Origin: a virus
Reading direction: 5' to 3' (one strand)
Length of the DNA: 64,000 nt
Virus record (IMG/VR): IMGVR_UViG_3300037502_000580
Span: 1-64,000 of that record
In this document: one piece after another, positions 4,461-38,108 of the stretch
Position numbering within the stretch: the stretch's first letter is position 1
How the letters are laid out: every line of letters begins with the position of its first letter
The notes under the pieces: generated by a model
The model's database searches: none
Seen by the model: the letters and a program-made list of their open reading frames with translations, nothing else
What the model was told of the DNA's origin: nothing
Made by a program: the position numbers and the translations under genes

Positions 4461-5777
4461 ATGGCCCAAACGATTACCACAACCGGCGACATCCCAAAGG
4501 TACTAGAACCTTTCTATCTAGGTCAGCCTGGACAGGCTGGTCTTTTAGAGCGCGGAATTGCTGAGATCTTCCCAGCTGGTCGGACTGGTCAAGAAGCATT
4601 TACCAATCGCTACAGCAATCTAATTAATGAAGGATTAGTCGGCAGAGGTGCGATTGCTGGGGAATCTGACTATCAGCAGCAGGTGGGGCGCAGGTTAGCG
4701 GGGCTTGAGGTTCCTGATACTTTTGCTTCCGCACGACAATACGGACAAGACGCAGCCTCAGGGCTTACTAGTCTTCAGGGACTTCGTGCTTCTCAAGTCT
4801 CTGCGCCAGAACTAACTCAGTATCAGATGGGGCCAGCCGATCAAGTTGCGGGTGGAACCTTTACCTCGCCTACCATGCAAGCCGCCCAAGTAGAAGGGCC
4901 GCAGATGTTTGGTATGGATCAGTTGCAGCAGTACATGTCTCCATACATGCAGGGTGTTGTTGATGTTCAACAGCGCAAGGCACTTGACGCGGCTCGTATG
5001 GCTCAACTCGGCGCTAATCTTGGTTCCGCACGGATGGGTACGTATGGCGGTGCTAGACAAGCAGTTATTCAGGGCGCTCGTGAAGCTGGCCTCCGTCAAG
5101 AAATGGGTGACATTCAAGCACGTGGTCTGCAAGATGCTTTCTCACAAGCTCAACAGCAATTTGAGCGTGATCGTTCTTCTACCATGCAGGCCAGACTCGC
5201 TAATCTAAATGCACAGCAACAAGCCAACGTGCAGAATCTAGCGGCTCAGTTACAGACTCAAGGACTAACCGCAGAACAGGCGATGCGTGCTGCACTTGCT
5301 AACCAACAGGCCAATCTAACTGTAGGTCAGCAGAACCTCGCCGCTTCTCTTGGGGTGCAGCAACTCGGTGCTGGTCAGAGTCTTGAGGCACAACGGGCCA
5401 ATCAGGCTGCAGATCTTCAGGCCGCACAACAACGCGCACAGGCCGCACAAGGTTTGGGCACTCTTGCTCAAGGTATGGGTACTCTTGGTACGCAACAACT
5501 TGCTGGTGAGCTTGACATACTGAAAAGTATGGGTGCGTATGGTGACTTCCAGCGTAACCTTGAACAACAGCAGAAAGACGCTCAGCGTCAGTTTCTTACT
5601 CAGCAGGCTGAGTACGGCACTACACAAGTGGGTCAGCTATCTAATTTGTTACGTGGTATTCCGATGACCGATACAACGCAACGCACATTTGAGCCGCCAC
5701 AGTCTAATTTCCAAAGTCTGATGCAGTTGGGTCTGGGCGGTATTGGTCTTTACAACGCAATGAATCCACAGCGTTAA
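4461..5777 (+). CDS. Gln/Ala-rich helical internal virion protein
   Basis: 438 residues. Residues about 150-400 are an almost uninterrupted alpha-helical Gln/Ala/Leu/Arg sequence with no prolines, resembling helical ejection or internal-core proteins of short-tailed phages. The short N-terminal part (ITTTGDIPKVLEPFYLGQPG) and the C-terminal tail differ in composition. The gene lies 10 bases after its upstream neighbour with AAAGGATAGATC before the start, and 11 bases before the next gene with the same spacing. No enzymatic motif is visible. Confidence 0.75.
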   Translation: MAQTITTTGDIPKVLEPFYLGQPGQAGLLERGIAEIFPAGRTGQEAFTNRYSNLINEGLVGRGAIAGESDYQQQVGRRLAGLEVPDTFASARQYGQDAASGLTSLQGLRASQVSAPELTQYQMGPADQVAGGTFTSPTMQAAQVEGPQMFGMDQLQQYMSPYMQGVVDVQQRKALDAARMAQLGANLGSARMGTYGGARQAVIQGAREAGLRQEMGDIQARGLQDAFSQAQQQFERDRSSTMQARLANLNAQQQANVQNLAAQLQTQGLTAEQAMRAALANQQANLTVGQQNLAASLGVQQLGAGQSLEAQRANQAADLQAAQQRAQAAQGLGTLAQGMGTLGTQQLAGELDILKSMGAYGDFQRNLEQQQKDAQRQFLTQQAEYGTTQVGQLSNLLRGIPMTDTTQRTFEPPQSNFQSLMQLGLGGIGLYNAMNPQR

Positions 5778-13286: not shown

Positions 13287-13487
13287 TTAAGTTCTCCATA
13301 CGCGCAATCCCATGATGCCGTTCTCGACCACGACCCGCGTGGTGAATGAGTAGTCTTTAGCGTGTTCCCGTGCTTCTTTTCTGAAGACTTTCAGGGTGTA
13401 AGACGGGTCGAGGGAAGGTATAAAGATCGATGTTCCGACCTTAAACCTATCCCACGGGATTACAAATCTAATCCTGTCCGACCACAT
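13287..13487 (-). CDS. Small conserved-looking protein, unknown function
   Basis: 66 residues, MWSDRIRFVIPWDRFKVG to VVENGIMGLRVWRT. It overlaps the 3' end of the primase-helicase gene by 20 bases and is the last leftward gene before the terminator. The compact alternation of charged and hydrophobic residues and the coupled position support a real gene. I recall similar small proteins (VVENG-GLRVWR ending) next to phage replication genes but cannot name a function. Confidence 0.7.
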   Translation of the reverse strand: MWSDRIRFVIPWDRFKVGTSIFIPSLDPSYTLKVFRKEAREHAKDYSFTTRVVVENGIMGLRVWRT

Positions 13488-16293
13488 CTATTAGGCTTTC
13501 TGGAATCTCGACACCCATCTTCTCTGCATTTAGCATCAATGCTTCGATAGGTGGCGTACCCAGAGGTGTGCCTTTTGACATGCCCTTCTTGGCTACCTTC
13601 AATAAGACACCCTCTGTCTCTAATTCCCGTATGACTTCTCGGTACGGCATCTGAGATTCGGTACATTCGTTACGGAAATGTTTGGCATCGACGTAGATCA
13701 TCTTGGTGTCTGGCTCCATGCGGATAAGTAGTTGCCCTCTCGGGGTCTGCTTACTAGCAAAGGCTGTCCGTCCATCTGCCACACTGTCGATGATCAGCGT
13801 GTTCTGCGCCATGTACTTCAGAATGTACCGACCAACAAAGGTCTTGGCATCACTGCCGTTATCGGTATTGGTCTCTTTGATCTGGCTTATCGTGTCCAGA
13901 TAGAAGTCAAACAGGTGCTTGAGGTTGTAATCGTGCAGGCCTATGTCTCTAGCAACCTGCCCACCCACTAGGTTGATTGCACCCAGTGCCGCATAGAAAC
14001 GGAAAGAGGGCTTGAGGTTTAGTTTGTCATTGATCTTGTTTACGGTGAGTTTGACCCGGTTGGTTATCTCATCCAGATTGTTACTCACGGCTGTGATGTA
14101 GGGCACCCAAGCATGACCGTAGTTTTCCATTAACAACTCATCAAAGAGCCTCACTCCTTCGTTGACACTGATGTTGGGACTGGGGTGGATGTGATATTCC
14201 ACACACCTAAAAACTTCTCCCTGTGGGAGATCCTTAATCAGATATAGCTTGTCGTAGAAAGAAGCGTTACTTGTTGCCACCCCCACCGTTCGCCATGTCG
14301 TATTGTTTGCCCTCAGAGTATTGGAGTTAGAGTTCATCCGGTCACGGCCCCGGCCTTGGGTGATGCCATACAGAAAGTTCGATACCTCTTCTGGCTTAGA
14401 GTTGGTCATCTCATCAACCGTCAGCGGGATGTTATTCAGCACCCCCATGCGTAGCACGAGAGAGGCTTTTGTATCATCTGCTGAACGCAACGGGTCTTCT
14501 GGGTGGCCCCAGATAGAGTTGATCATTCGTAAGATTGTGGTCTTACCCGTGCCAGAACCCCGGTGAATAAGATTAAGAAGCACGCCTTTGTGGTTTGTTG
14601 ATACTTTCAACAATGGTGCGCCAAATCCAGTCAGGGCGGCGAAGGCCTGGGGTTCAGACCCGGCAACGTTATAGCCGTTAAATGCCTCTTTCCATTTGTC
14701 TAGCGTACCGGCTGGTTTGTACCAGTCCACCATGTCGGATGTTGTCGTAGTTGGTGGCACATAGCGCAGCATACCCTTCTCCAATTCCACGTCTCCTACT
14801 ACGAAGTTACCGGTAGATGTCCATCCGAATTGGTGATGCGCTGTGTCTGCTCGTTTGCTCATCTGTAGTTCCTGCGCCGCTCGTATGACATATGCCTGAA
14901 TCTCTTGCCATTGCTTACCAAAGGTCAGTACTCCACGTTTGGATAACTCACTCTTTAGGGTATCGATGGAAGTCAGCCCGTTCATAGATACGGTGAAATT
15001 CTTGACCCCATCTTTTGGCAGATGCAACCGTATCCAGGCACTCTCACCTTCTGCTGGGTCATAAATCCGCTGAACTACAAACAAGTCATGCGGGTAAACA
15101 ACCTTTTGGTCTTCATTGTTGGTGATGTAGATGCCACCCTTTGCGCCACGGAAGTACGGATCTGGCAATTTAGGGATCTCGTAGGTGATTTCTGCATCAG
15201 AACCCTCTTGTTTTACGACTATCTCGGTCTCTTTCGATGCCGGTACTTCAACACCTAGCGTGATGGGGGACTTGATTTTGCCTTGGTTGACGCATCCTTC
15301 GCATCCTCCAGGGTTTAGTTTTTCAAATGTCTCGCAGTAGTACGGCCCCCGGTTCTCGCCTTTGGTGCGTGCTGCCTCCCGCTCTGTCTCCTCGTATGTG
15401 TAGTTAGGGTGCTTCTCTGAAATCTTATGGATAGCTTTAGCGGCATCTTCACAATGCTCGGCAATCGACAGGCCTGCACGCCATAGGCTCTGATCTATGA
15501 TTTCTTGGTCTTCGTAGATGTGCAGTAGCTGTGGACAACCGGTGCCTTTGACTGACTTGACCAGTATGTTCTTAAAGTACGTTACCTTGTTGCCCATCAG
15601 TGCCTTGGTCAGAGCGCTTGGCTCTTTGCGTGGCATGCCAAGATCCACCTTCGGAGGTGGTGGCGGGGGCATCAGTTTGGCTAACTCGTCTTTATCAAAG
15701 AACGTCTCTGGCGGGATAAGTAGTTTTACCTGACGTGGTTCCTCTTGCTTGAGGTTGTAGGTATCAGGTACACGCAGTATCCGTGCGGCATCAATCGTGC
15801 AACCAGCATCGATAAGAAGTTTCTTCTCTTTGCAAAGAAGCCGCAGGCTCTCTGCTAGTGGTTGCCACTCTTCCCGTGTGAGTTCTTGAGTCAGAGGCCA
15901 GTATGCGTGGAACCCGCCGCCTGAATCTACCAAGGCAGGCCATGGGAACCCGGTCTCCTCTAAGAACTTCTCAAGCGCTTCGATAGCCGCATCTTTATCG
16001 GCATAGCCTTCCCCGGCTTCTGCCTTCTCTGGGCTACAGTCTAGGTCTAACCATATAGCCTTGATAGCCTTGACGTTGGTTTGGGCGCGTGGCTTGGGTA
16101 CATTACGTTCTTTAAATGTGGCAAGTGCAAAGTAGACATCCCTGTGTTGTGACAGGAACGTGTAAATCTCGTTTTCTGTTTCCTCGATACTGCTGAAAAA
16201 GGACTGGACTACAGGGCGATCTGCCTTCTTGTTTATCCCCGTGATGCAATAAAGACCTTCCCCAGCAAGAATGGCTCTCAAAAATTCTTGCAT
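13468..16293 (-). CDS. Primase-helicase (AEP-like primase plus DUF927/SF3-like ATPase)
   Basis: 941 residues. The N-terminal third has archaeo-eukaryotic primase-like signatures: IWLDLDCS (acidic metal ligands, about residue 75) and VDSGGGFHAYWPL (about residue 125). A Cys cluster (YCETF...GGCEGC) near residue 330 could bind zinc. The C-terminal half carries a Walker A GSGTGKTT near residue 576, a VDEM Walker B-like motif near residue 625 and Asn/Arg-rich TGATNAS-like sequence, as in DUF927/D5-type helicases. It would prime and unwind DNA for the phage polymerase. It starts three bases after the HTH gene. Confidence 0.88.
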   Translation of the reverse strand: MQEFLRAILAGEGLYCITGINKKADRPVVQSFFSSIEETENEIYTFLSQHRDVYFALATFKERNVPKPRAQTNVKAIKAIWLDLDCSPEKAEAGEGYADKDAAIEALEKFLEETGFPWPALVDSGGGFHAYWPLTQELTREEWQPLAESLRLLCKEKKLLIDAGCTIDAARILRVPDTYNLKQEEPRQVKLLIPPETFFDKDELAKLMPPPPPPKVDLGMPRKEPSALTKALMGNKVTYFKNILVKSVKGTGCPQLLHIYEDQEIIDQSLWRAGLSIAEHCEDAAKAIHKISEKHPNYTYEETEREAARTKGENRGPYYCETFEKLNPGGCEGCVNQGKIKSPITLGVEVPASKETEIVVKQEGSDAEITYEIPKLPDPYFRGAKGGIYITNNEDQKVVYPHDLFVVQRIYDPAEGESAWIRLHLPKDGVKNFTVSMNGLTSIDTLKSELSKRGVLTFGKQWQEIQAYVIRAAQELQMSKRADTAHHQFGWTSTGNFVVGDVELEKGMLRYVPPTTTTSDMVDWYKPAGTLDKWKEAFNGYNVAGSEPQAFAALTGFGAPLLKVSTNHKGVLLNLIHRGSGTGKTTILRMINSIWGHPEDPLRSADDTKASLVLRMGVLNNIPLTVDEMTNSKPEEVSNFLYGITQGRGRDRMNSNSNTLRANNTTWRTVGVATSNASFYDKLYLIKDLPQGEVFRCVEYHIHPSPNISVNEGVRLFDELLMENYGHAWVPYITAVSNNLDEITNRVKLTVNKINDKLNLKPSFRFYAALGAINLVGGQVARDIGLHDYNLKHLFDFYLDTISQIKETNTDNGSDAKTFVGRYILKYMAQNTLIIDSVADGRTAFASKQTPRGQLLIRMEPDTKMIYVDAKHFRNECTESQMPYREVIRELETEGVLLKVAKKGMSKGTPLGTPPIEALMLNAEKMGVEIPESLIDVVGQD

Positions 16294-17927: not shown

Positions 17928-19509
17928 TGTTAACTCCAGTTTGGTTGCTCATGTTTACTTTGTCAACCTCTTGATAAAAAAGTTCCACAACTTTTGAGTG
18001 GATGTTCTCTTTTTTTCTCAGGGAGGCGTAAACCTTGGCTTCTACCGTACTGCCCTGTAGGTGGACGACTGTCACATTGTGACGCTGCCCCTTGCGGTGC
18101 GCCCTGGCGTTGGCCTGTAAGTAGGACTCCAGACTGGTGGTGGGGCCGAACCAAATGATCGTGTCGGCGGCTGTAAGCGTTACCCCGTGGGCCGCAGCCT
18201 GGGGCTGAATGACCAGCACCCGTGGGTCTTTTTCCTGCTGAAATGTCCTGAAGATCTCGCTTCGTTTGGTCGCCGTAACCTCACCAGATATGATCTCGTT
18301 GGTTATGCCGTTCTCAGTCAGGAAGTCTGAGACAGAGCCTATCGCATGCTTAAATGGCACGAAGACCAGAATCTTATTAGAGGTTTCCCTAATAACCTCC
18401 AGCAACACATCCAGCCGGTTCTTGCCATCAAACGATATCGCATCGCCGTTGTCGGAATAGACAACACCCACGGACAACTGCAGTAACTTGTTCATTAAGG
18501 TCGCGGCGTTGACTGCTGTAATTGTCTCGTCTGCCGCGTGGATCATCATTTGCCGACTGATCTTGTCGTAGTAGGCCTCTTGCTGTCTTGATAGCGGCAC
18601 CATGCGGGTCACATAGGTTATGTCCGGTAGGTCTAGGCACTGCTCTTTGGTGAACCTGATTGCTGGTTGCAGTGCAGCATGGACTCTTTCCACGGCATCT
18701 ACTCTGGGTAACCAGACGAATCGGGACACTTGCGCCATCACATGATCTTTCCAGGCGGTTTTGAACTTCGGCACGCGATGTGGAGAGACAAGTTTTGCCA
18801 TGCCAAAGGCATCTTCTGGTGACTGTGCCGCAGGTGTGCCGGTCAGCATCCACAACCAGACGTTATCGAACATCAGATTGTTTAGGCACTTCCATCTGCG
18901 GGTAGAGGTGTTCTTGTAGGCATTGGCCTCATCGACAATGATCAGATCAAAGCCAGCCCCCTGCAGATCTTTCAGTATGACTTCCACACCGTCGTAGTTG
19001 ATGATTACGAACTCGGCGTCGCTCTCTATGATCTCTTTGCGCTTCTCTGCCCTACCATGGGCTATGGCTACCCTGCGGTGCATGGCGAACCCAAAAAGGT
19101 CTTGTTGCCAAGCAGATTGCATGATTGACAGAGGGCAGATGATCAGAACCCGATTGATGACACCCTTCTTCATCAGATAATCTGCAGCCCAGATGCAAGA
19201 TGCCGTCTTGCCTGTACCTTGCTCATTGAAACAGAAGGCACGCTTGTGCAGGGTGAGGAAGGATGCCGTCTCTATCTGGTGGCTCATGGGCTTATTGAAC
19301 CCAGGCCAGTTGTAGTCCTTCTTTATAGTGGACGGTACGTTTTTGATGTTGAGTCTGGCTAGAGTCTGTGCTTCGTCAAGTCCCCACTTAACTAGCACCT
19401 CAGATGAACCATCCAGACTATTAACGAGTTTACTGTTGGGAATCGTATCCAGAACGGGTCTGGGATTCTTTAGCCTCAACAGCAAGGCTTTGTTGTCGAT
19501 TATTTGCAT
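17920..19509 (-). CDS. SNF2-family DEAD-like helicase
   Basis: 529 residues. Q-motif-like MSHQIETASFL near residue 78, Walker A EQGTGKT at 96-102, Walker B DEAN at 193-196, a SGTP-like LTGTPAA, and a C-terminal helicase domain with motif VI QANARAHRKGQ near residue 490. This is the short SNF2-type helicase found in many phages, probably acting in replication or recombination fork processing. One dispersed palindrome (18071-18083) lies inside motif VI sequence, reading RHNVT. Confidence 0.9.
   Translation of the reverse strand: MQIIDNKALLLRLKNPRPVLDTIPNSKLVNSLDGSSEVLVKWGLDEAQTLARLNIKNVPSTIKKDYNWPGFNKPMSHQIETASFLTLHKRAFCFNEQGTGKTASCIWAADYLMKKGVINRVLIICPLSIMQSAWQQDLFGFAMHRRVAIAHGRAEKRKEIIESDAEFVIINYDGVEVILKDLQGAGFDLIIVDEANAYKNTSTRRWKCLNNLMFDNVWLWMLTGTPAAQSPEDAFGMAKLVSPHRVPKFKTAWKDHVMAQVSRFVWLPRVDAVERVHAALQPAIRFTKEQCLDLPDITYVTRMVPLSRQQEAYYDKISRQMMIHAADETITAVNAATLMNKLLQLSVGVVYSDNGDAISFDGKNRLDVLLEVIRETSNKILVFVPFKHAIGSVSDFLTENGITNEIISGEVTATKRSEIFRTFQQEKDPRVLVIQPQAAAHGVTLTAADTIIWFGPTTSLESYLQANARAHRKGQRHNVTVVHLQGSTVEAKVYASLRKKENIHSKVVELFYQEVDKVNMSNQTGVNNE
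18071..18083. promoter_or_regulatory. Palindrome 1, GTCAC-ATT-GTGAC
   Basis: The copy furthest from the early promoter region; lies inside the SNF2 helicase gene. Confidence 0.7.
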
Positions 19510-19550
19510 TGGCTCTCAGCACGGGCTACCGGCCCGAGACGGTTTAGGGT

Positions 19551-19859
19551 TTACTTCTTTTCGCGTTTACTAACTTCTGACACGAGTTTGCTCTGCGAGT
19601 TCCGCTTGAAAGACCTATTCTTGCTAGGTGATTCGATACGCACGCCGTGACCGTTACTGCCCCCCTTACTTAGCGCACGCTTGTGGGCTACATCTTTACC
19701 TTCACGAGCATCAGCCTTGCCATTCCCGTTAGCATCTTTACCGTTGCTATCAATCTTGCGTCTGGCTCGCTGCCGCTCCATGCGGAACTCATGTTCCCCA
19801 CGTTCTTTCTGTTGCTCGTATTCTTTCTTGTACGGCCTGGGTTTGTTGACGTAAGGCAT
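19551..19859 (-). CDS. HNH-like basic protein (tentative)
   Basis: 102 residues, strongly basic. The segment DVAHKRALSKGGSNGHGVRI followed by SPSKNRSFKRN matches the spacing of HNH nucleases (a His near the first strand, then GG-N and NR), but the usual C-x-x-C pairs are absent. It may be a small nuclease or a DNA-binding protein. Its start shares bases with the stop of the Cas4-like gene. Confidence 0.6.
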   Translation of the reverse strand: MPYVNKPRPYKKEYEQQKERGEHEFRMERQRARRKIDSNGKDANGNGKADAREGKDVAHKRALSKGGSNGHGVRIESPSKNRSFKRNSQSKLVSEVSKREKK

Positions 19860-20524
19860 TATTCATGTCTCCCATTGTGAACACAGCTTACAACTGGGCA
19901 GTATTGGCGGCATGTGAAGTTTGGTTTGGCGTTCCAGACATCTTCTTTAAACGTCTGGGCCAGCCATTGATACCGGCCTGTCCATTCCTGCATGATGCCA
20001 ACTACGTCTGCCCGAGTGTATTTCCGTGTGATCATGTCCTCACAGACCAGAAACAGCAACGCCGCCTTTATGGTCTGCACTTGCGGGAAGTGGGCAAAGG
20101 TGCATAGCGCCATGAGATCTAACTGCTTGGTGTCTGCATACTTGCTTGACTTACCCGTCTTGTAGTCTACGATTCGGGCCTTCTCGCCGTCAATGACGAT
20201 CAAGTCAGCGATACCTCGTAGCCACACATTGCTGTCAAAGAACCCACATGCCTCACCATCGCTGGTCAGCCCCATCCTGTATTCGCAGTGCTTCTCCCCT
20301 GGTAGTTCCTTTAGTAACCGAAACGGTTCCTCAAACTGCGAGAACTGTGGGGGTACGGGTGCGTCCTCTTTGATGTAGTTCTCTGCCGCCGTGTGGACTG
20401 CCTCGCCATACATGATGGCCTCTGACTTTGGCTCAGTAACATCTTTTACTACCTTGAGGTGGTAGTATTTTTTGGGACACTGCTCAAACAGACCGATAGC
20501 GCTATAAGACCAAGCTGGAGTCAT
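19859..20524 (-). CDS. PD-(D/E)XK exonuclease of the Cas4/RecB type
   Basis: 221 residues. N-terminal YSAIGLFEQCPKKYYHLKV with the first iron-sulfur-type cysteine, then ADLIVID...ARIVDYKTGKSSKYADTKQLDLMA, which holds the catalytic D-x-K and the downstream QLxxY-like motif, and a C-terminal CRQYCPVVSC cluster. This matches Cas4/AddB-like nucleases with a 4Fe-4S cluster. It probably trims ends for recombination or processes host DNA. It overlaps the small upstream gene by four bases. Confidence 0.85.
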   Translation of the reverse strand: MTPAWSYSAIGLFEQCPKKYYHLKVVKDVTEPKSEAIMYGEAVHTAAENYIKEDAPVPPQFSQFEEPFRLLKELPGEKHCEYRMGLTSDGEACGFFDSNVWLRGIADLIVIDGEKARIVDYKTGKSSKYADTKQLDLMALCTFAHFPQVQTIKAALLFLVCEDMITRKYTRADVVGIMQEWTGRYQWLAQTFKEDVWNAKPNFTCRQYCPVVSCVHNGRHE

Positions 20525-28547: not shown

Positions 28548-29768
28548 TTAAAGTTTGATTACCTTGCCGGGGAAGTTCCCGACCCTACCTTTACTGCTAA
28601 TCACCCAGACCGTAGGCGGCATGCCGCTCCAGTCACCTACATCACCAACCTCTCCATCAGTAAAGATGACCAAAGCCTGACTTGTCACTTTGTGACAGAG
28701 CATGTACTCCCTAACGCAACCAACTGTCGTGCCTCCACCTCCTTCCGGTTTAGTAGACTGCGGGATGCTGTCTATCTGATCTTGCGTATAGATCTCGTGC
28801 TTGCACACTGTCGTGTCCCAATACAGCAGATGAATCTTCTCGGGCTGCACTATCTTGCAGATGCCCACCAACTCAGAGAGGAACTCGATAAGTTCAGACT
28901 GCCCGATAGATCCTGACATGTCAGTGGCAATCGTTATCGACTCCATCGACTCCGAGATCGATGTTGGCATGTACATGTCCTGAGACACGAACCTTCTGTT
29001 AGGACGCCGCCATGACGAGTCACTGCGTGCGGCACATGTTGAGATCATGAATTCCCTAAGAAGTTCATACGGGTTAAGTTTAGGTTCCAACAAGTCAGCG
29101 AAGTCTCGTTGTCCACCCGAGCCAGCCTCTCCCTTCTTCTTAAGTAAGATCTCGCCTTGCCGGAGCGCCTGATCAATCTTGCGCTCAACTTCCTTGCGCT
29201 CCTCTTCATTCCAAGACTCTGCACTTTGCCAATCGTGTTCATCAAACCCTCCGCTGTTATCGCCATCACCGTCGTCACCATCATCGCCGTCGTCGCCGTC
29301 GTCGTCGCCGTCATCTTCATCTTGTTCCTGCATTAAGATGTCAAAGACTTGTCGGGCATCCATACCCTCAAACCGCTTGTCCATGCACCCATTCGCAGGC
29401 ATCTGGGCAACTTCTCCATACGGGTCGTACTTAGTGATCTGCAGGTTGATGACATGATCGCAGGCGGCATTGGCGATCTTGGGGTTCTGCTCGTAGAGGT
29501 TGCGCCACACCAGCATATGTTTGTAGGCCTTGTGCCAATTCTCATGCAGCACCAGGAAGTTCAACTCTTTGTCGGTCAGACTTGTCACAAAGTGACGCCC
29601 GTACTGAGTGTTCAGCCCGTCAGTCCGTGCTGTCATCTTGGGGTTGTCCACGACCTCGGTCTTGCCAGAGACAAGAATCCCCGACATAAGAATAAACTTC
29701 TTATGCGCCATGAGCGTCACATGCGCTCTGTGCAGGCGTTGTTCAGCCGTTAGTTTTGAAAGATCCAT
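28548..29768 (-). CDS. VWA-like protein with zinc-metallopeptidase-like N-terminus
   Basis: 406 residues. The N-terminal domain has HENWH (residues 75-79), an HExxH zinc motif, in LVLHENWHKAYKHM, as in DUF2201-type putative metallopeptidases. Residues about 150-175 are an acidic Asp/Gly linker. The C-terminal VWA-like domain has the metal-adhesion motif DMSGS at 283-287. Such proteins pair with MoxR-type AAA+ ATPases, here encoded two genes upstream, in the manner of CobT with CobS. Whether the zinc site is catalytic is unknown. Two palindromes lie inside the gene. Confidence 0.85.
   Translation of the reverse strand: MDLSKLTAEQRLHRAHVTLMAHKKFILMSGILVSGKTEVVDNPKMTARTDGLNTQYGRHFVTSLTDKELNFLVLHENWHKAYKHMLVWRNLYEQNPKIANAACDHVINLQITKYDPYGEVAQMPANGCMDKRFEGMDARQVFDILMQEQDEDDGDDDGDDGDDGDDGDGDNSGGFDEHDWQSAESWNEEERKEVERKIDQALRQGEILLKKKGEAGSGGQRDFADLLEPKLNPYELLREFMISTCAARSDSSWRRPNRRFVSQDMYMPTSISESMESITIATDMSGSIGQSELIEFLSELVGICKIVQPEKIHLLYWDTTVCKHEIYTQDQIDSIPQSTKPEGGGGTTVGCVREYMLCHKVTSQALVIFTDGEVGDVGDWSGMPPTVWVISSKGRVGNFPGKVIKL
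28684..28696. promoter_or_regulatory. Palindrome 6, GTCAC-TTT-GTGAC
   Basis: Inside the VWA gene; reads CHKVT. Confidence 0.7.
29584..29596. promoter_or_regulatory. Palindrome 7, GTCAC-AAA-GTGAC
   Basis: Inside the VWA gene, 12 residues before the HExxH motif; reads RHFVT. Confidence 0.7.
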
Positions 29769-29782
29769 CTGTATCTCCTCAA

Positions 29783-30175
29783 TTAATTAACACGAAGTAT
29801 CGTGATCTCAGTTCTGTCTGCATTGAATTCAGTCAGGTAGTTCTTAGACCCAAACAATCTACGACCCGAATTGCACACGACCGAACGCATAGTGTCTGGG
29901 TGGTACTTGCATGGGATAGTCGCTGTCTGCCCAGGCTCAAGCGGGGCGATGTACTCATTAACATACTCAGACGGCTCACCCCTCTTTGCTTCAGGGTTGC
30001 GGGTTGCGACACGCGCAGGCTTCTCCTTCTTTTTCTTCTGCGGTTCGATGACCCCATCGGGGTCATGCACGATAACTTCTCCGTCAGCCAGCACGACTTT
30101 GAACGAGGCTCCGCTGTTGCGTAGGAAGGCGAGTTGCGTCTCGGTTGCTTTACGAACGATGCTTGTGATTGCCAT
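29783..30175 (-). CDS. Hypothetical protein between the MoxR and VWA genes
   Basis: 130 residues. A beta-rich N-terminus (FKVVLADGEVIVHDPDG), a basic linker (QKKKKEKPARVATRN) and a C-terminal part with two Cys (ATIPCKYH...SVVCNSGRRLFG). It ends in EITILRVN. The position suggests a module accessory protein; no family recognised. Confidence 0.65.
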   Translation of the reverse strand: MAITSIVRKATETQLAFLRNSGASFKVVLADGEVIVHDPDGVIEPQKKKKEKPARVATRNPEAKRGEPSEYVNEYIAPLEPGQTATIPCKYHPDTMRSVVCNSGRRLFGSKNYLTEFNADRTEITILRVN

Positions 30176-30195
30176 GACTGTATCTCCTCAATTAG

Positions 30196-31266
30196 TTAGC
30201 GTGCTTTGGCAAAGATGTAGTTATTGCGTGTGGCCCAGTCAATGAATGACGCATGGCCTGCCGCCTTGGCGTTGTCAGACTCAAGTAGTGAACGCGCAAA
30301 TACGCCTTGGTTCTCTTTGGGTAGACGCTCAAGGTAGATCATCCAGCGTTCGATGTTCTCGCGCTTAACATGTAAGACAGCCTTGTAGGTCATGATGCAG
30401 TTCGCCACGGGGTCACTCGGTATGCTTATGCCATGCGGGTCAGCGAGAATAGAATCGAAGGTCGGCATCTTGTCATCCAGGTTGATGAACGCATGCAGAG
30501 ACCGCGCACCAGACTCGCCAATCGAACCGATCAAGGCTGCAAGCATTGGCTCATCACCGATTAACTTGCGCTTCTTCACGATGTTGGATGCCTTCTCAAA
30601 CGAACGCGGAGAACAGAAGGCTGTCTGGACTTCTTTAGGGTTGAAGATGTACTGGTTCTTGGCCTGGCTGGGGTCAAGATAGGAAGCCATGGTCTCGGGG
30701 TACTGATCAACGAACGCGATAACTTGTTCTGTCACGTTGTGACGGATCGCCCACTTGATCCACTCTTCAGCCGTGGGCTTACGGAAATTGACCACAGCCA
30801 TACGGTTCTGGGCGTGCGCTTTGAGATGATCGCCTACGCCATCCTGCGACAGATTGCCCGTGGCAAAACGCAAAGACCCCTCGGGTAAGTAAGTGTCACC
30901 GATGCGCCCCTCAAGTAAGAGAGGCAATAACATGTTCTGCACAGACTGCGATGCTTTGGTCAGCTCGTCCAGCATAAGAATGACGGGCCTGCCCGTGTGC
31001 AGTTTGAAGTGTGCGTTTGGATAATATCGCGTGCAGTTCAACTCTCTGTCGATGAACGGCATTGCAATGTCGCCCAGGTCAAGGTTCGCGCAGTCGATGT
31101 ACGCTACCTCGTGATCGGGGAATAACTTAGCAAGATCTTTGAGCATGGATGACTTGCCAACACCAGGCTCGCCACGGAAAAGAATCGTGTCGGTCTGGCC
31201 CAGGTTTGCCACCATGGCAACGGCTTGCTCGTGATTTACGGAAGTTCCAAATGTGATAGTACCCAT
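30196..31266 (-). CDS. MoxR/CobS-like AAA+ ATPase
   Basis: 356 residues. Walker A GEPGVGKS at 32-39, Walker B VILMLDEL with D100/E101, and sensor-1 FATGNLSQDG near residue 137 define a MoxR-type AAA+ ATPase. It probably remodels a target recruited by the VWA protein encoded downstream. In phages these pairs are often called cobaltochelatase subunits, but nothing here indicates cobalamin metabolism. The leader is about 170 bases and contains palindrome 9 and an AAAAC repeat tract; promoter A lies upstream. Confidence 0.9.
   Translation of the reverse strand: MGTITFGTSVNHEQAVAMVANLGQTDTILFRGEPGVGKSSMLKDLAKLFPDHEVAYIDCANLDLGDIAMPFIDRELNCTRYYPNAHFKLHTGRPVILMLDELTKASQSVQNMLLPLLLEGRIGDTYLPEGSLRFATGNLSQDGVGDHLKAHAQNRMAVVNFRKPTAEEWIKWAIRHNVTEQVIAFVDQYPETMASYLDPSQAKNQYIFNPKEVQTAFCSPRSFEKASNIVKKRKLIGDEPMLAALIGSIGESGARSLHAFINLDDKMPTFDSILADPHGISIPSDPVANCIMTYKAVLHVKRENIERWMIYLERLPKENQGVFARSLLESDNAKAAGHASFIDWATRNNYIFAKAR
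30731..30743. promoter_or_regulatory. Palindrome 8, GTCAC-GTT-GTGAC
   Basis: Inside the MoxR gene; reads RHNVT. Confidence 0.7.
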
Positions 31267-33424: not shown

Positions 33425-33808
33425 TCAAGGACTTACACGACTACCCACCCTCCTCTTTTTCTCCTCATCAAACAACACCCCGCTGAGCGCCTCGACCACC
33501 AGCATCCCCGTGGCTATGCCCATCGAATACCTACCATGCCCACGCCCTGCGGCATGCAGTCCTCGGTTGATAACTTCTCCTAAATTAAACTGCCGTACCA
33601 TCTGCCCTACCGACTCCCCCTGCTCATCGAACTCCAGCCGTGCTATCTGTAAGTTGGGGTTGCACAGCCCGTACTCTTTGACCACACCCGCCAGCACATA
33701 GAACGCCTGCGCTTCGTACTCATAGGTGTCAAGTTGTTGTCGTAGCAGGGTTATTTGTTGTTGCAGTTGGTTTATTTGGTTTATCAGGTCTGCTCGTTCG
33801 TCTTTCAT
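33425..33808 (-). CDS. Coiled-coil protein, unknown
   Basis: 127 residues. Residues 1-35 form a Gln/Leu coiled coil (LINQINQLQQQITLLRQQL); the rest (YVLAGVVKEYGLCNPNLQI; HAAGRGHGRYSMGIATGM) is compact. It overlaps the HNH-like gene by four bases. Confidence 0.7.
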   Translation of the reverse strand: MKDERADLINQINQLQQQITLLRQQLDTYEYEAQAFYVLAGVVKEYGLCNPNLQIARLEFDEQGESVGQMVRQFNLGEVINRGLHAAGRGHGRYSMGIATGMLVVEALSGVLFDEEKKRRVGSRVSP

Positions 33809-34548
33809 TTTCTCCCCCGTATCGCACTGGCGATTAACTCGTCTAGTTTTACCCTCAATAACTCAGCCACCACGGCATCGGCTAACTCATCTTCCTTGAC
33901 CTCCACGGTTCGCAGTGTCTTCATCTCGTCTTTGACTGTCTTCACCTCATCCTTTAGTGCCCTGAGTTCCAGCTTTAGTTCCTTGATGTTGTCGAGAATC
34001 TGCTGACCCAGGCTGATCTTGGGGGCTATGTTGTTTGGGTTAGTTGCGTGGGTTGCGCCAGGGGTTGCGTTGCCCGTTGCGCCGGGGGTTGCGTGTTCTT
34101 GATTCAGTGGATCCTGCTCTAACTTCTCATTGACTCGCCTGTTGTGCTTGGTGCGCGGCCCCTCGGATAGTTGGCAGTGGGCGGGGTTCACACACAAGGG
34201 GTTGCGGCATACCCGTGTGATGCGCCCAAGGGTTGCGGGGTCTTGGTGCAGGAGGGTGTTCAGGCGTTTGAAGATGTAAGAGTGCGCGGGGTAATTCATG
34301 TACCGGGCGGAGCCTTGGTTCTTGTCGGTTGCGCCTTGCCATTCCCAGCAGGGGAGGCCTTTGGTTTGGGGGGTGAGTTTGGCGGCAAGGGCCAGCTTCA
34401 CGGGGTCTGTCACGATGTGACAGTTCTGCCGAACCCAGGCGAGGAACTCGCTCTTTTGGGGGTCTGATAATGGTTGATCATCGCGTAGGGGAATTCCGGC
34501 ACGGTCGATGAATTTGGGGTGTGGGGTGGTTTGGGGGACGAAACGCAT
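33805..34548 (-). CDS. HNH-like endonuclease with C-terminal coiled coil
   Basis: 247 residues. GLPCWEWQGATDKNQGSARY ... AHSYIFKRL ... RVCRNPLCVNPAHC is the pattern of HNH_3-type homing endonucleases (C-x4-CVNPxH). A low-complexity Ala/Thr/Pro/Gly/Asn stretch (residues about 150-170) precedes a long charged coiled coil (ELKLELRALKDEVKTVKDEM), unusual for free-standing HNH enzymes. It may be a mobile nuclease or a derived DNA-binding protein. Element F lies just upstream; palindrome 13 is in the N-terminal codons. Confidence 0.75.
   Translation of the reverse strand: MRFVPQTTPHPKFIDRAGIPLRDDQPLSDPQKSEFLAWVRQNCHIVTDPVKLALAAKLTPQTKGLPCWEWQGATDKNQGSARYMNYPAHSYIFKRLNTLLHQDPATLGRITRVCRNPLCVNPAHCQLSEGPRTKHNRRVNEKLEQDPLNQEHATPGATGNATPGATHATNPNNIAPKISLGQQILDNIKELKLELRALKDEVKTVKDEMKTLRTVEVKEDELADAVVAELLRVKLDELIASAIRGRK
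34409..34421. promoter_or_regulatory. Palindrome 13, GTCAC-GAT-GTGAC
   Basis: Inside the HNH-like gene; reads CHIVT. Confidence 0.7.
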
Positions 34549-34581
34549 GGGGTGGACTCCGTGAGTGTGGGGGGAAAAGGG

Positions 34582-34609
34582 TTCGACAGGGGAGGCGTGG
34601 GGAAGTTCC
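34582..34609 (-). promoter_or_regulatory. Promoter-like element F
   Basis: Leftward GGAACTT (34603-34609), 15-base spacer, GTCGAA (34582-34587), 34 bases upstream of the HNH-like start. A GTTTACA palindrome ends seven bases upstream of the -35-like box. Spacing differs by one from promoters A-D, so it is less certain. Confidence 0.5.
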
Positions 34610-34615
34610 AGCGTG

Positions 34616-34632
34616 GTTTACAGATTGTAAAC
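34616..34632. promoter_or_regulatory. Second-type palindrome, GTTTACA-GAT-TGTAAAC
   Basis: Seven-base arms with three central bases. The only other copy is at 34791-34807. It sits just upstream of element F, a normal operator position. Confidence 0.7.
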
Positions 34633-34671
34633 GATAGGGTAAATGGGGTGGGTGTTGTAATTTTGCGTCAT

Positions 34672-34921
34672 AAATTTCTTTAATTTACTTATATATTACT
34701 AATTTGTTTGAGCTGAACATTATTATATTACCTTTTTTCTAAATTTCCGAGGAAAATCATGCGCGGAGCAAAAAATACCCCTTTTTTACGGTTTACAATC
34801 TGTAAACCAACGAAACGACATTTTTGGGAACGCCAAAACTGCCGGAAAAAAAGAAAAAAGGTAATATAATAGTAGTGTAGTAGTAGTAGTATAGTAATAT
34901 ATAAGTAAATTAATGAAATTT
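34672..34921. repeat. Concentric nested inverted repeat, AT rich
   Basis: Outer arms 34672-34700 and 34893-34921 match in 28 of 29 positions as inverted copies; inner arms 34721-34749 and 34843-34871 match in 26 of 29. Both pairs and the palindrome at 34791-34807 share a centre within three bases (about 34796-34799). A TAG trinucleotide run lies between the right arms. Possible uses: replication origin, cruciform, or a decayed MITE-like insertion. Confidence 0.85.
34791..34807. promoter_or_regulatory. Second-type palindrome, GTTTACA-ATC-TGTAAAC
   Basis: At the centre of the nested inverted repeat; inverted copy of the site at 34616. Confidence 0.7.
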
Positions 34922-34962
34922 AATATCTCCTAAGCAATGCTTGTGCCAACTTTCGGGGGAGT

Positions 34963-34975
34963 GTCACAAAGTGAC
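34963..34975. promoter_or_regulatory. Palindrome 14, GTCAC-AAA-GTGAC
   Basis: Intergenic, 23 bases before the first 44-bp block. Confidence 0.75.
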
Positions 34976-34998
34976 AAAAAAACTGCTTTTTTGCGGTT

Positions 34999-35042
34999 GA
35001 TGGCGAGAATTCGTGCGATACCAGTTCCCCCTGCAAAGGGCC
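34999..35042. repeat. 44-bp block, copy 1
   Basis: Matches 35866-35909 at 40 of 44 positions. It contains GAATTC and, leftward, GGGGAACTGGTATCG, which resembles the -35 part of the promoters but lacks a convincing -10 partner. Flanked by palindromes 14 and 15. Confidence 0.75.
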
Positions 35043-35075
35043 ATGGATCCCTGCGGGTAAGATGTTCATGGGTGT

Positions 35076-35088
35076 GTCACATTGTGAC
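35076..35088. promoter_or_regulatory. Palindrome 15, GTCAC-ATT-GTGAC
   Basis: Just beyond the T run of the leftward terminator at 35095. Confidence 0.75.
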
Positions 35089-35094
35089 AGGCGC

Positions 35095-35120
35095 AAAAAA
35101 ACCCCAGGTGTTGCCTGGGG
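35095..35120 (-). terminator. Leftward intrinsic terminator
   Basis: CCCCAGG (35102-35108) pairs with CCTGGGG (35114-35120); leftward a seven-T run follows. It ends the transcript of the 192-residue gene. Confidence 0.85.
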
Positions 35121-35139
35121 TGTTAAGGGTTGGGGTTGC

Positions 35140-35718
35140 TTAGACTGCTTCTTTGAGGAGTCCGTCTTCGATTGCCGCTTCTTCGATATCGGGCCACATG
35201 GTCAACAGGTTCTCGACCGCCTGGGGTTCGCACTGCGACAGGTGATTGCGGAGAACACGCAACGCTTCCGCTACTTTGTCATAGGATGTTGTACCCGAAC
35301 CCGTCCCTGGCGCCGCTTCCCTAGGCGTGTACCGATCTAGCCCTAAGATCTCAACGCAGTAGGTCAAGAATCGGCTGTACTGCTCACGCGGATTACCGCC
35401 TGATTCCGAACGCGCCTTGACACGCTCGACGATTGCCGTCTTGATACCCTGGGCGTATTCCTTGTGGGTCTTCGCCTGTTCAGAGTTCTCCGATTTCAGG
35501 AAATCGACCGCACGCTTCGCTTCCTTGACGATTGCCGGATCACGCTTGCTCAGCATCGCGTAGTGGATCCACTCAGACCCGAACAGGTTGATTGCCTCGT
35601 GGGCGGAAGCACGCCACTGCGCCTTGATTGATTCTCTTGCCTGGGACTCGATATCGAGAGCCTGGTCAACGATAGCGGCGAACACTGCGAACTTCTCAAC
35701 GGTTGTTTGAACTTGCAT
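35140..35718 (-). CDS. Early protein, paralogue 1
   Basis: 192 residues from MQVQTTVEKFAVFAAIVDQA at 35718, behind AGGAGATTC. Mostly helical. It is clearly homologous along its whole length to the 36470-37054 gene (shared ARSE-GGNPREQ-SRFL, GTGSGTTSYDKVAEALRVLR, CEPQAVEN, DIEEAA-DGLLKE). It has its own promoter (C), operator pair and terminator, the arrangement of a strongly expressed early gene. No family recognised; a single-stranded DNA-binding or host-shutoff role would only be a guess. Confidence 0.85.
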   Translation of the reverse strand: MQVQTTVEKFAVFAAIVDQALDIESQARESIKAQWRASAHEAINLFGSEWIHYAMLSKRDPAIVKEAKRAVDFLKSENSEQAKTHKEYAQGIKTAIVERVKARSESGGNPREQYSRFLTYCVEILGLDRYTPREAAPGTGSGTTSYDKVAEALRVLRNHLSQCEPQAVENLLTMWPDIEEAAIEDGLLKEAV

Positions 35719-35739
35719 TTTTGAATCTCCTGGTAAGAT

Positions 35740-35865: not shown

Positions 35866-35909
35866 GATGGCGAGAATTCGTACGATACCAGTTCCCCCCG
35901 CGCAGGGCC
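35866..35909. repeat. 44-bp block, copy 2
   Basis: Second copy of 34999-35042, between palindromes 17 and 18; four substitutions. Confidence 0.75.
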
Positions 35910-37484: not shown

Positions 37485-38108
37485 ATGCAACTACTTGAAC
37501 CGGAAGTAGGCGTGGACGTTCCAGAGTCCAACTTTAATTTTCAAGACGTATACGAGAAAGCTCGTATCGCGTGCAATACTGCTTTGGAATTAAACCAACG
37601 TGGTATGCCTATCGAGATCGATAAAGAAGATGAACTCTTTGCTGAGAGGATCATCAAGGAAGAGATCTCAATCCCCACCAACTACAATTTCTCTGCTGGT
37701 ACCGCAGTAAAACTCGGCGCACTGCTGCAAGAGTACGACGTGCAGGTTGCCAAAAGTGCTGCCCAGTTACGTACCGTCTCCACTAACAAACTCATAGAAA
37801 TGCTAGACGACCCAGACCCCAAGGTCAGGCTTAAGGCTATTGAGTTAATCGGCAAGATTGCTGACGTGGGTCTCTTTGCTGAGAGAACCGAGATAACCAT
37901 AAATCACAAGTCAACTATCGAGTTGCAGCAGGAGTTGGCTAAGTTAGTAAGTGACTATGTGGATGTGGAAACCAAGTTAGTAACAAGTGACACGGAGGAA
38001 GAAGAGGAAGAAGATGGGGCACCACGAGAAGAGGAAGAAAGAGAGAGCGCTGGCACGCAAGAAGGAGATGCAGAAGCTGCTAGAGACGAAACTGAGGAAG
38101 ACAAGTGA
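37485..38108 (+). CDS. Putative terminase small subunit
   Basis: 207 residues. Residues about 20-150 are helical (YEKARIACNTALELNQRGM; LRTVSTNKLIEMLDDPDPKVRLKAIELIG split across this region) and the last 45 residues are a Glu/Asp-rich tail. It is first in the late arm and overlaps the large subunit by four bases, the normal position of the DNA-recognition subunit. The name rests on position and shape. Confidence 0.7.
   Translation: MQLLEPEVGVDVPESNFNFQDVYEKARIACNTALELNQRGMPIEIDKEDELFAERIIKEEISIPTNYNFSAGTAVKLGALLQEYDVQVAKSAAQLRTVSTNKLIEMLDDPDPKVRLKAIELIGKIADVGLFAERTEITINHKSTIELQQELAKLVSDYVDVETKLVTSDTEEEEEEDGAPREEEERESAGTQEGDAEAARDETEEDK

Follow-up and report, generated by a model that had tools for sequence, protein, structure and literature searches.

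A candidate replication origin with mirrored iterons in an uncultured aquatic phage encoding a distant primase-helicase related to pathogenicity island initiators

Results

The dyad and its neighbourhood

An ORF-free gap of 591 bp (34549-35139) was found between two leftward genes of the window, which is the whole stretch of 64,000 nucleotides analysed here (positions 1 to 64,000 of the 87,451-bp viral record IMGVR_UViG_3300037502_000580). The gap holds an imperfect dyad with 27% GC, against 49% in the window. The features of this locus, preceded by the gene of the proposed initiator, are as follows.

13468-16293, minus strand: AEP primase, SaPI-Rep/Cch-like helicase and winged-helix protein of 941 aa, proposed initiator
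33805-34548, minus strand: HNH-endonuclease-like gene, adjoining the element in all close relatives in which this flank is present
34616-34632, no strand: second copy of the central palindrome, GTTTACAGATTGTAAAC, between the element and the HNH gene; its final 16 bases are kept in L085
34671-34922, no strand: candidate replication origin, 252-bp imperfect dyad, delimited by arms, self-alignment, folding and GC content
34671-34701, plus strand: outer left arm, 31 nt, complementary to 34892-34922 at 30 of 31 positions, with compensatory changes against L102
34671-34678, minus strand: degenerate third iteron GAAATTTA, two mismatches, 21 bp outside 34692
34692-34699, minus strand: iteron GTAATATA, outer, left half
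34721-34749, plus strand: inner left arm, 29 nt, complementary to 34843-34871 at 26 of 29 positions
34724-34731, minus strand: iteron GTAATATA, inner, left half, 32 bp from the outer left iteron
34791-34807, no strand: central palindrome GTTTACAATCTGTAAAC (GTTTACA-N3-TGTAAAC), possible operator; similar in L085, replaced in L102 and L100
34843-34871, plus strand: inner right arm, 29 nt, pairing with 34721-34749
34861-34868, plus strand: iteron GTAATATA, inner, right half
34870-34893, plus strand: TAG/TA repeats of the right half, between the inner and outer iterons, kept in relatives (L007, L010)
34892-34922, plus strand: outer right arm, 31 nt, pairing with 34671-34701
34894-34901, plus strand: iteron GTAATATA, outer, right half, 33 bp from the inner right iteron
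34915-34922, plus strand: degenerate third iteron GAAATTTA, 21 bp outside 34894
35101-35121, minus strand: intrinsic terminator closing the upstream gene, identified by consensus match
35140-35721, minus strand: early neighbour gene of unknown function, from a family with one or two copies per phage

Transcription of the upstream gene probably stops short of the element, because of the terminator at 35101-35121. The initial annotation had described two nested pairs of 29-base arms sharing their centre, to within three bases, with a palindrome in an AT-rich region with TAG repeats. All of this was confirmed, the outer pair now extending over 31 nt, and the centres lie at 34796.5 (outer arms), 34796 (inner arms) and 34799 (GTTTACAATCTGTAAAC). 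The second palindrome copy, a mirrored array of 8-mers in the arms and the exchange of the palindrome between branches described below had been overlooked. All 252 bp matched their own reverse complement at 69% (E 1.9e-21). Folding of the element was strong both as single-stranded DNA (z = -7.2, with none of 100 shuffles folding as well) and as RNA (z -7.65), and an Rfam search of it gave nothing above threshold. The 129 bp between the inner iterons, at the centre of the element, had 37% GC and were less AT-rich than the arms. BLAST detected no further copy of the element in the 87-kb record, and no target-site duplication was found flanking it.

The record itself exceeds one genome: genes of the region 0.2-23 kb recur in divergent form at 64-87 kb, among them a second primase-helicase (79797-82628) that is 37% identical to the first. 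The structural, primase-helicase and helicase genes of window 1-23000 and of G000 64001-87451 (L094, L095) diverge to 26-88% identity, and the record (about 64 kb plus 23 kb) probably combines two related phages in a chimeric assembly. The element sits in the single-copy middle of the record, and its linkage to the first primase-helicase was confirmed in G001 and G009, whose sequences run collinear with that of the window over the whole stretch between the element and the primase-helicase.

Iteron array and its conservation in close relatives

The 8-mer GTAATATA occurred four times in the 87,451-bp record, always inside the element and in mirror order, two copies on the minus strand being followed by two on the plus strand. 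When every 8-mer was counted on both strands, this array was the only cluster of at least four copies in mixed orientation within 350 bp in the record. Any such cluster appeared in one of 60 Markov-simulated 64-kb windows, and a 2+2 mirror cluster in none of the 60. The sites of each half lie at 0, 21 and 54 bp, and their spacings of 21 and 32-33 bp correspond to about two and three helical turns.

Syntenic copies of the element were found upstream of the same HNH-like gene in L085 (73% identity), in L007 and L102, which are nearly identical to each other, and in L100, whereas the copy in L010 was partial, being interrupted by the contig end before the HNH flank. No copy outside the syntenic place was detected in the relatives searched, and a search for the exact arm pattern across viral contigs gave 53 matches, among which the element was shared only by a sister already known. 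The iteron word was GTAATATA in L085 (positions 2207, 2228 and 2260) and ATAAGATA in L102/L007, L100 and L010, at the same kind of spacing (L102, 2655/2676/2709 and 2867/2900/2921; L100, 2637/2658/2691; L010, 110/143/164). In G009 (L102), ATAAGATA had four occurrences in 42.5 kb, all inside the element. Third sites homologous to GAAATTTA fitted the motif better in L085, L102, L100 and L010.

Conservation of the arms with compensatory changes, which the initial annotation had proposed to look for, was observed in the relatives: RNAalifold predicted 60 pairs, 20 of them with at least one compensatory double change. The inner and outer motifs had shifted together to one new word, and we therefore prefer co-evolving protein sites over base pairing as the explanation; it is the iteron motif that the changes follow, so that the arms can be explained without a cruciform. 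Iterons bound by a protein that evolves along with them would change in this concerted way, a role that these sequences suggest for the sites of the element. In L085 and L100 one arm pairs poorly and most iterons are retained. The nesting of the arms around a palindrome was real and yet did not hold as the essential feature; the palindrome is not the conserved core, since it is kept in L085 and another dyad takes its place in the L102/L007/L100 branch.

Candidate initiator protein

DUF927 was detected in the 941-aa protein, and profile searches matched it to Cch (5dgk, 3.5e-14) and to a pathogenicity-island protein (8tch, 1.2e-13). Foldseek also retrieved 8tch, the SaPIbov1 replication initiator (E 1.3e-10), and, for the N-terminal part, returned archaeo-eukaryotic primases (AEP), namely cyanophage S-2L PrimPol and RepB'. 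The full-length model was of low confidence (mean pLDDT 64.8); the C-terminal 152 residues modelled alone had a mean pLDDT of 69.1, with a core of up to 90. In structure this C-terminal domain was closest to SaPIbov1 Rep at its residues 453-561 (Z 10.4, rmsd 2.7 over 97), followed by Cch in the equivalent region (Z 9.2), and it also matched the DNA-bound pCW3 relaxosome protein. The phage thus encodes, in the same replicon as the element, a Rep-type helicase with a C-terminal DNA-binding domain. The distance between the element and the primase-helicase gene was 18.4 kb in the window and 18-19 kb overall, being similar in G001, G009, G006 and G007. Between the two iteron branches the C-terminal domain was 55% identical and the helicase 72%, which faintly hints at a change of specificity.

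The equivalent locus in the wider family

At least 599 relatives of the large terminase were found among viral contigs, and 80 of them were examined for dyads. In several of these 80, an AT-rich dyad preceded the large terminase gene at a distance of 2-3 kb, and the 8-mers found at the equivalent locus were CAATATTC (four copies in L022), GAACATTA (seven in L026) and TAACATTA (eight in L018). With seven to eight copies, the arrays of L018 (1484-1806) and L026 (6397-6703) are bigger than that of the window.

Nine further long contigs with the same primase-helicase were selected by gene and length only. The sequence read ran, in some of the nine, up to the final few kb. Within it, all mixed-orientation clusters of eight contigs were located some 2-3 kb upstream of the terminase. 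The clusters of seven contigs were 1.9-2.6 kb upstream, that of G023 would, on a circular record, be about 3.2 kb upstream, and G026 had no mixed-orientation cluster in the sequence read. Some of these distant clusters were iteron-like (GAATAATA) and several were palindromic and operator-like (GTACGAAA, GTATGAAA, GTGGGAAA) rather than iteron arrays, so that the equivalent locus carries more than one kind of site. The IHF consensus WATCAANNNNTTR was present in most of the more distant candidates, with one to three sites each against 0.01-0.1 expected, and in the AT-rich gaps of two cultured phages; the element of the window contains none.

Distant homologues of the initiator were found in Pseudomonas phage Rollin, which has palindromic repeats in an AT-rich gap, and in Rhizobium phage RHph_TM27A (L260), whose AT-rich gap of 770 bp (19356-20125), itself a candidate origin, contains the IHF consensus twice, in inverted orientation and with some 320 bp between the sites, and has no 8-mer array. 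As loci comparable to the element, these two gaps are suggestive only. The cultured lake phage DSL-LC04 (L097), with a similar terminase, has at 5478-5697 a dyad whose 45-nt arms match at 84% and which adjoins an HNH gene; it has no iteron cluster and its primase differs from that of the window. No comparable long dyad was detected in the 25 kb read of each of the Pelagibacter phages HTVC027P and HTVC023P.

GC skew

Analysis of GC skew, also proposed in the initial annotation, placed cumulative minima within about 0-2 kb of the element in four records: at 34.0 kb in the record studied here (element 34.7-34.9), in the 13-14 kb bin of G009 (13.5-13.8), at 9-10 kb in G006 (11.4) and at 35-36 kb in G007 (36.7). 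This is consistent with an origin and is not proof of one, because gene direction also changes nearby. The skew of DSL-LC04 was uninformative and gave no support for an origin.

Other repeats and gene pairs

The palindrome GTCACA-N-TGTGAC occurred nine times in the window (18071, 26275, 26889, 31373, 33316, 35076, 35740, 35819 and 35926), mostly between early genes. It was also present in L085, and clade-2 phages had palindromes of the TTTCGTAC/GTACGAAA type instead; these sites look like operators of a phage-wide early regulator. A block, GATGGCGAGAATTCGTRCGATACCAGTTCCCC, lay twice upstream of early genes (35003-35044 and 35870-35909) and had relatives (GGCGAGAGAGCGCACNGATACCNGTTCCC) in L007 and L010, being a possible early promoter element. 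At 28548-31266 an AAA+ (AAA_5, MoxR-like) ATPase adjoins a DUF2201 metallopeptidase/VWA-like protein, a pair also found in RHph_TM27A.

Discussion

The sequence comparisons make it likely that the element is the replication origin of the phage, similar in its working to PICI/SaPI origins and served by the distant primase-helicase. The initial annotation had proposed an origin or a switch, and it is the origin half that gained support, from the mirrored iterons, the compensatory changes of the arms, the synteny, the linked initiator-type protein and the skew minima. A protein related to the initiators of staphylococcal pathogenicity islands would probably open the element, which would act as a theta-type origin. 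The primase-helicase would bind the 8-bp iterons, using its C-terminal winged helix for contact. With the half arrays oriented against each other and the sites of each on one face of the helix, two and three turns apart, one helicase ring could be loaded on each side. The loaded rings would melt the AT-rich arms and the TAG tract, and bidirectional synthesis would start with the primase domain of the initiator itself and the phage DNA polymerase I. We infer binding, ring loading, melting and firing at the element from the array and from the make-up of the protein.

The origins of PICIs have two sets of iterons flanking an AT-rich region (PMC6092414), and the primase and helicase of PICI/SaPI replication proteins are sometimes fused (PMC6092414, PMC7581432). 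The element resembles the origins of SaPIbov1 and the E. coli PICIs in its two sets of short iterons, here mirrored with two or three sites per half, and in that its proposed initiator is a Rep helicase whose C-terminal DNA-binding domain has the same fold. However, the PICI origin lies just 3' of rep and not 18-19 kb from it, and PICIs have an integrase and no full set of virion genes, whereas the record encodes terminase, portal and head proteins. Moreover, the triplets here are strictly mirrored, TAG repeats occur on one side, and AT-richness lies more in the iteron arms than in the centre. The element was not classed with the PICI/SaPI origins, because it is not beside the rep gene and its replicon is a phage. 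The SCCmec Cch/Cch2 proteins are likewise related helicases with a C-terminal DNA-binding domain, and in the putative Cch2 origin direct repeats serve as iterons (PMC7581432). In contrast, SCCmec is an integrated cassette, and that origin consists of three 5-bp iterons just downstream of the gene. Our literature search found no paper describing the origin proposed here.

Oppositely oriented initiator boxes around an AT-rich or palindromic region are also found in herpes simplex oriS and oriL and in the dyad symmetry of EBV oriP, where the spacing is 21 bp as in the element; those viruses and their initiators are unrelated to this phage, and the resemblance is an analogy only. A bacterial oriC or DnaA-trio (BUS) origin was rejected, as the DnaA box TTWTNCACA was absent within 18 kb of the element and TAG repeats alone were present. 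A partition site was also rejected, no ParA-like match being found among the early proteins scanned, and so was a protelomerase-type telomere, for which the loop is far too long.

The element could instead be a transcriptional control region at the early/late border, where an array of activator or repressor sites, with the GTTTACA and GTCACA palindromes serving as operators, would govern the leftward early genes, the HNH gene among them. It lies 123 bp upstream of that gene with palindromes on both sides, and palindromic operator-like clusters (TTTCGTAC-GTACGAAA) occupy the same locus in clade-2 phages. However, the clusters persist in the clade-2 phages inspected, in which no HNH-like gene was seen beside the element, σ70 promoters are not in excess, and helically phased mirror arrays spanning 250-300 bp would be unusual for a promoter. 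We regard this as unlikely; regulation may also coexist with an origin. Alternatively, the small terminase might bind the element as a pac-like site of packaging or termination, as the constant distance of 2-3 kb to the large terminase gene downstream would suggest. This appears quite improbable, since the element lies outside the putative small terminase gene (37485-38108), record ends are not gathered at it, and the IHF sites and the linked origin-type initiator would be left unexplained.

The arms might also act as a hairpin or cruciform, or as an RNA hairpin in the HNH leader, like a stem-loop origin of the pRN1 type. In pRN1 and some phages a long stem-loop origin goes together with an AEP-helicase-winged-helix protein (PMC4234260), the domain order is the same in the phage protein, the element does have a long conserved stem-loop, and its strong folding and compensatory changes point the same way. 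Yet pRN1 has no iterons and its stem-loop is directly downstream of the replication gene (PMC4234260), whereas here iterons are plainly present and 18.4 kb separate the element from the gene. A joint change of inner and outer motifs to the same new 8-mer would not be expected from pairing alone, the poorly pairing arms of L085 and L100 kept most iterons, no Rfam family was matched and the inner loop would span about 90 nt, all of which makes this reading very improbable. A decayed mobile element such as a MITE, which the initial annotation had offered for the long imperfect AT-rich inverted repeat, is barely credible for a single-copy, always syntenic element that lacks flanking duplications.

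The reading as an origin opened by the primase-helicase may reach beyond this phage. It is possible, if on balance doubtful, that widespread aquatic phages, the terminase relatives of HTVC027P, share a mirror-symmetric iteron origin loading two rings and a distant primase-helicase-winged-helix initiator. To our knowledge, the origins of most uncultured phages are not known; here one locus, one class of motif per lineage and one candidate initiator can be named across many phages. Recognition of the origin and its change of specificity would thereby become directly testable, and a replication module of pathogenicity islands would be linked to phages that have virion genes of their own.
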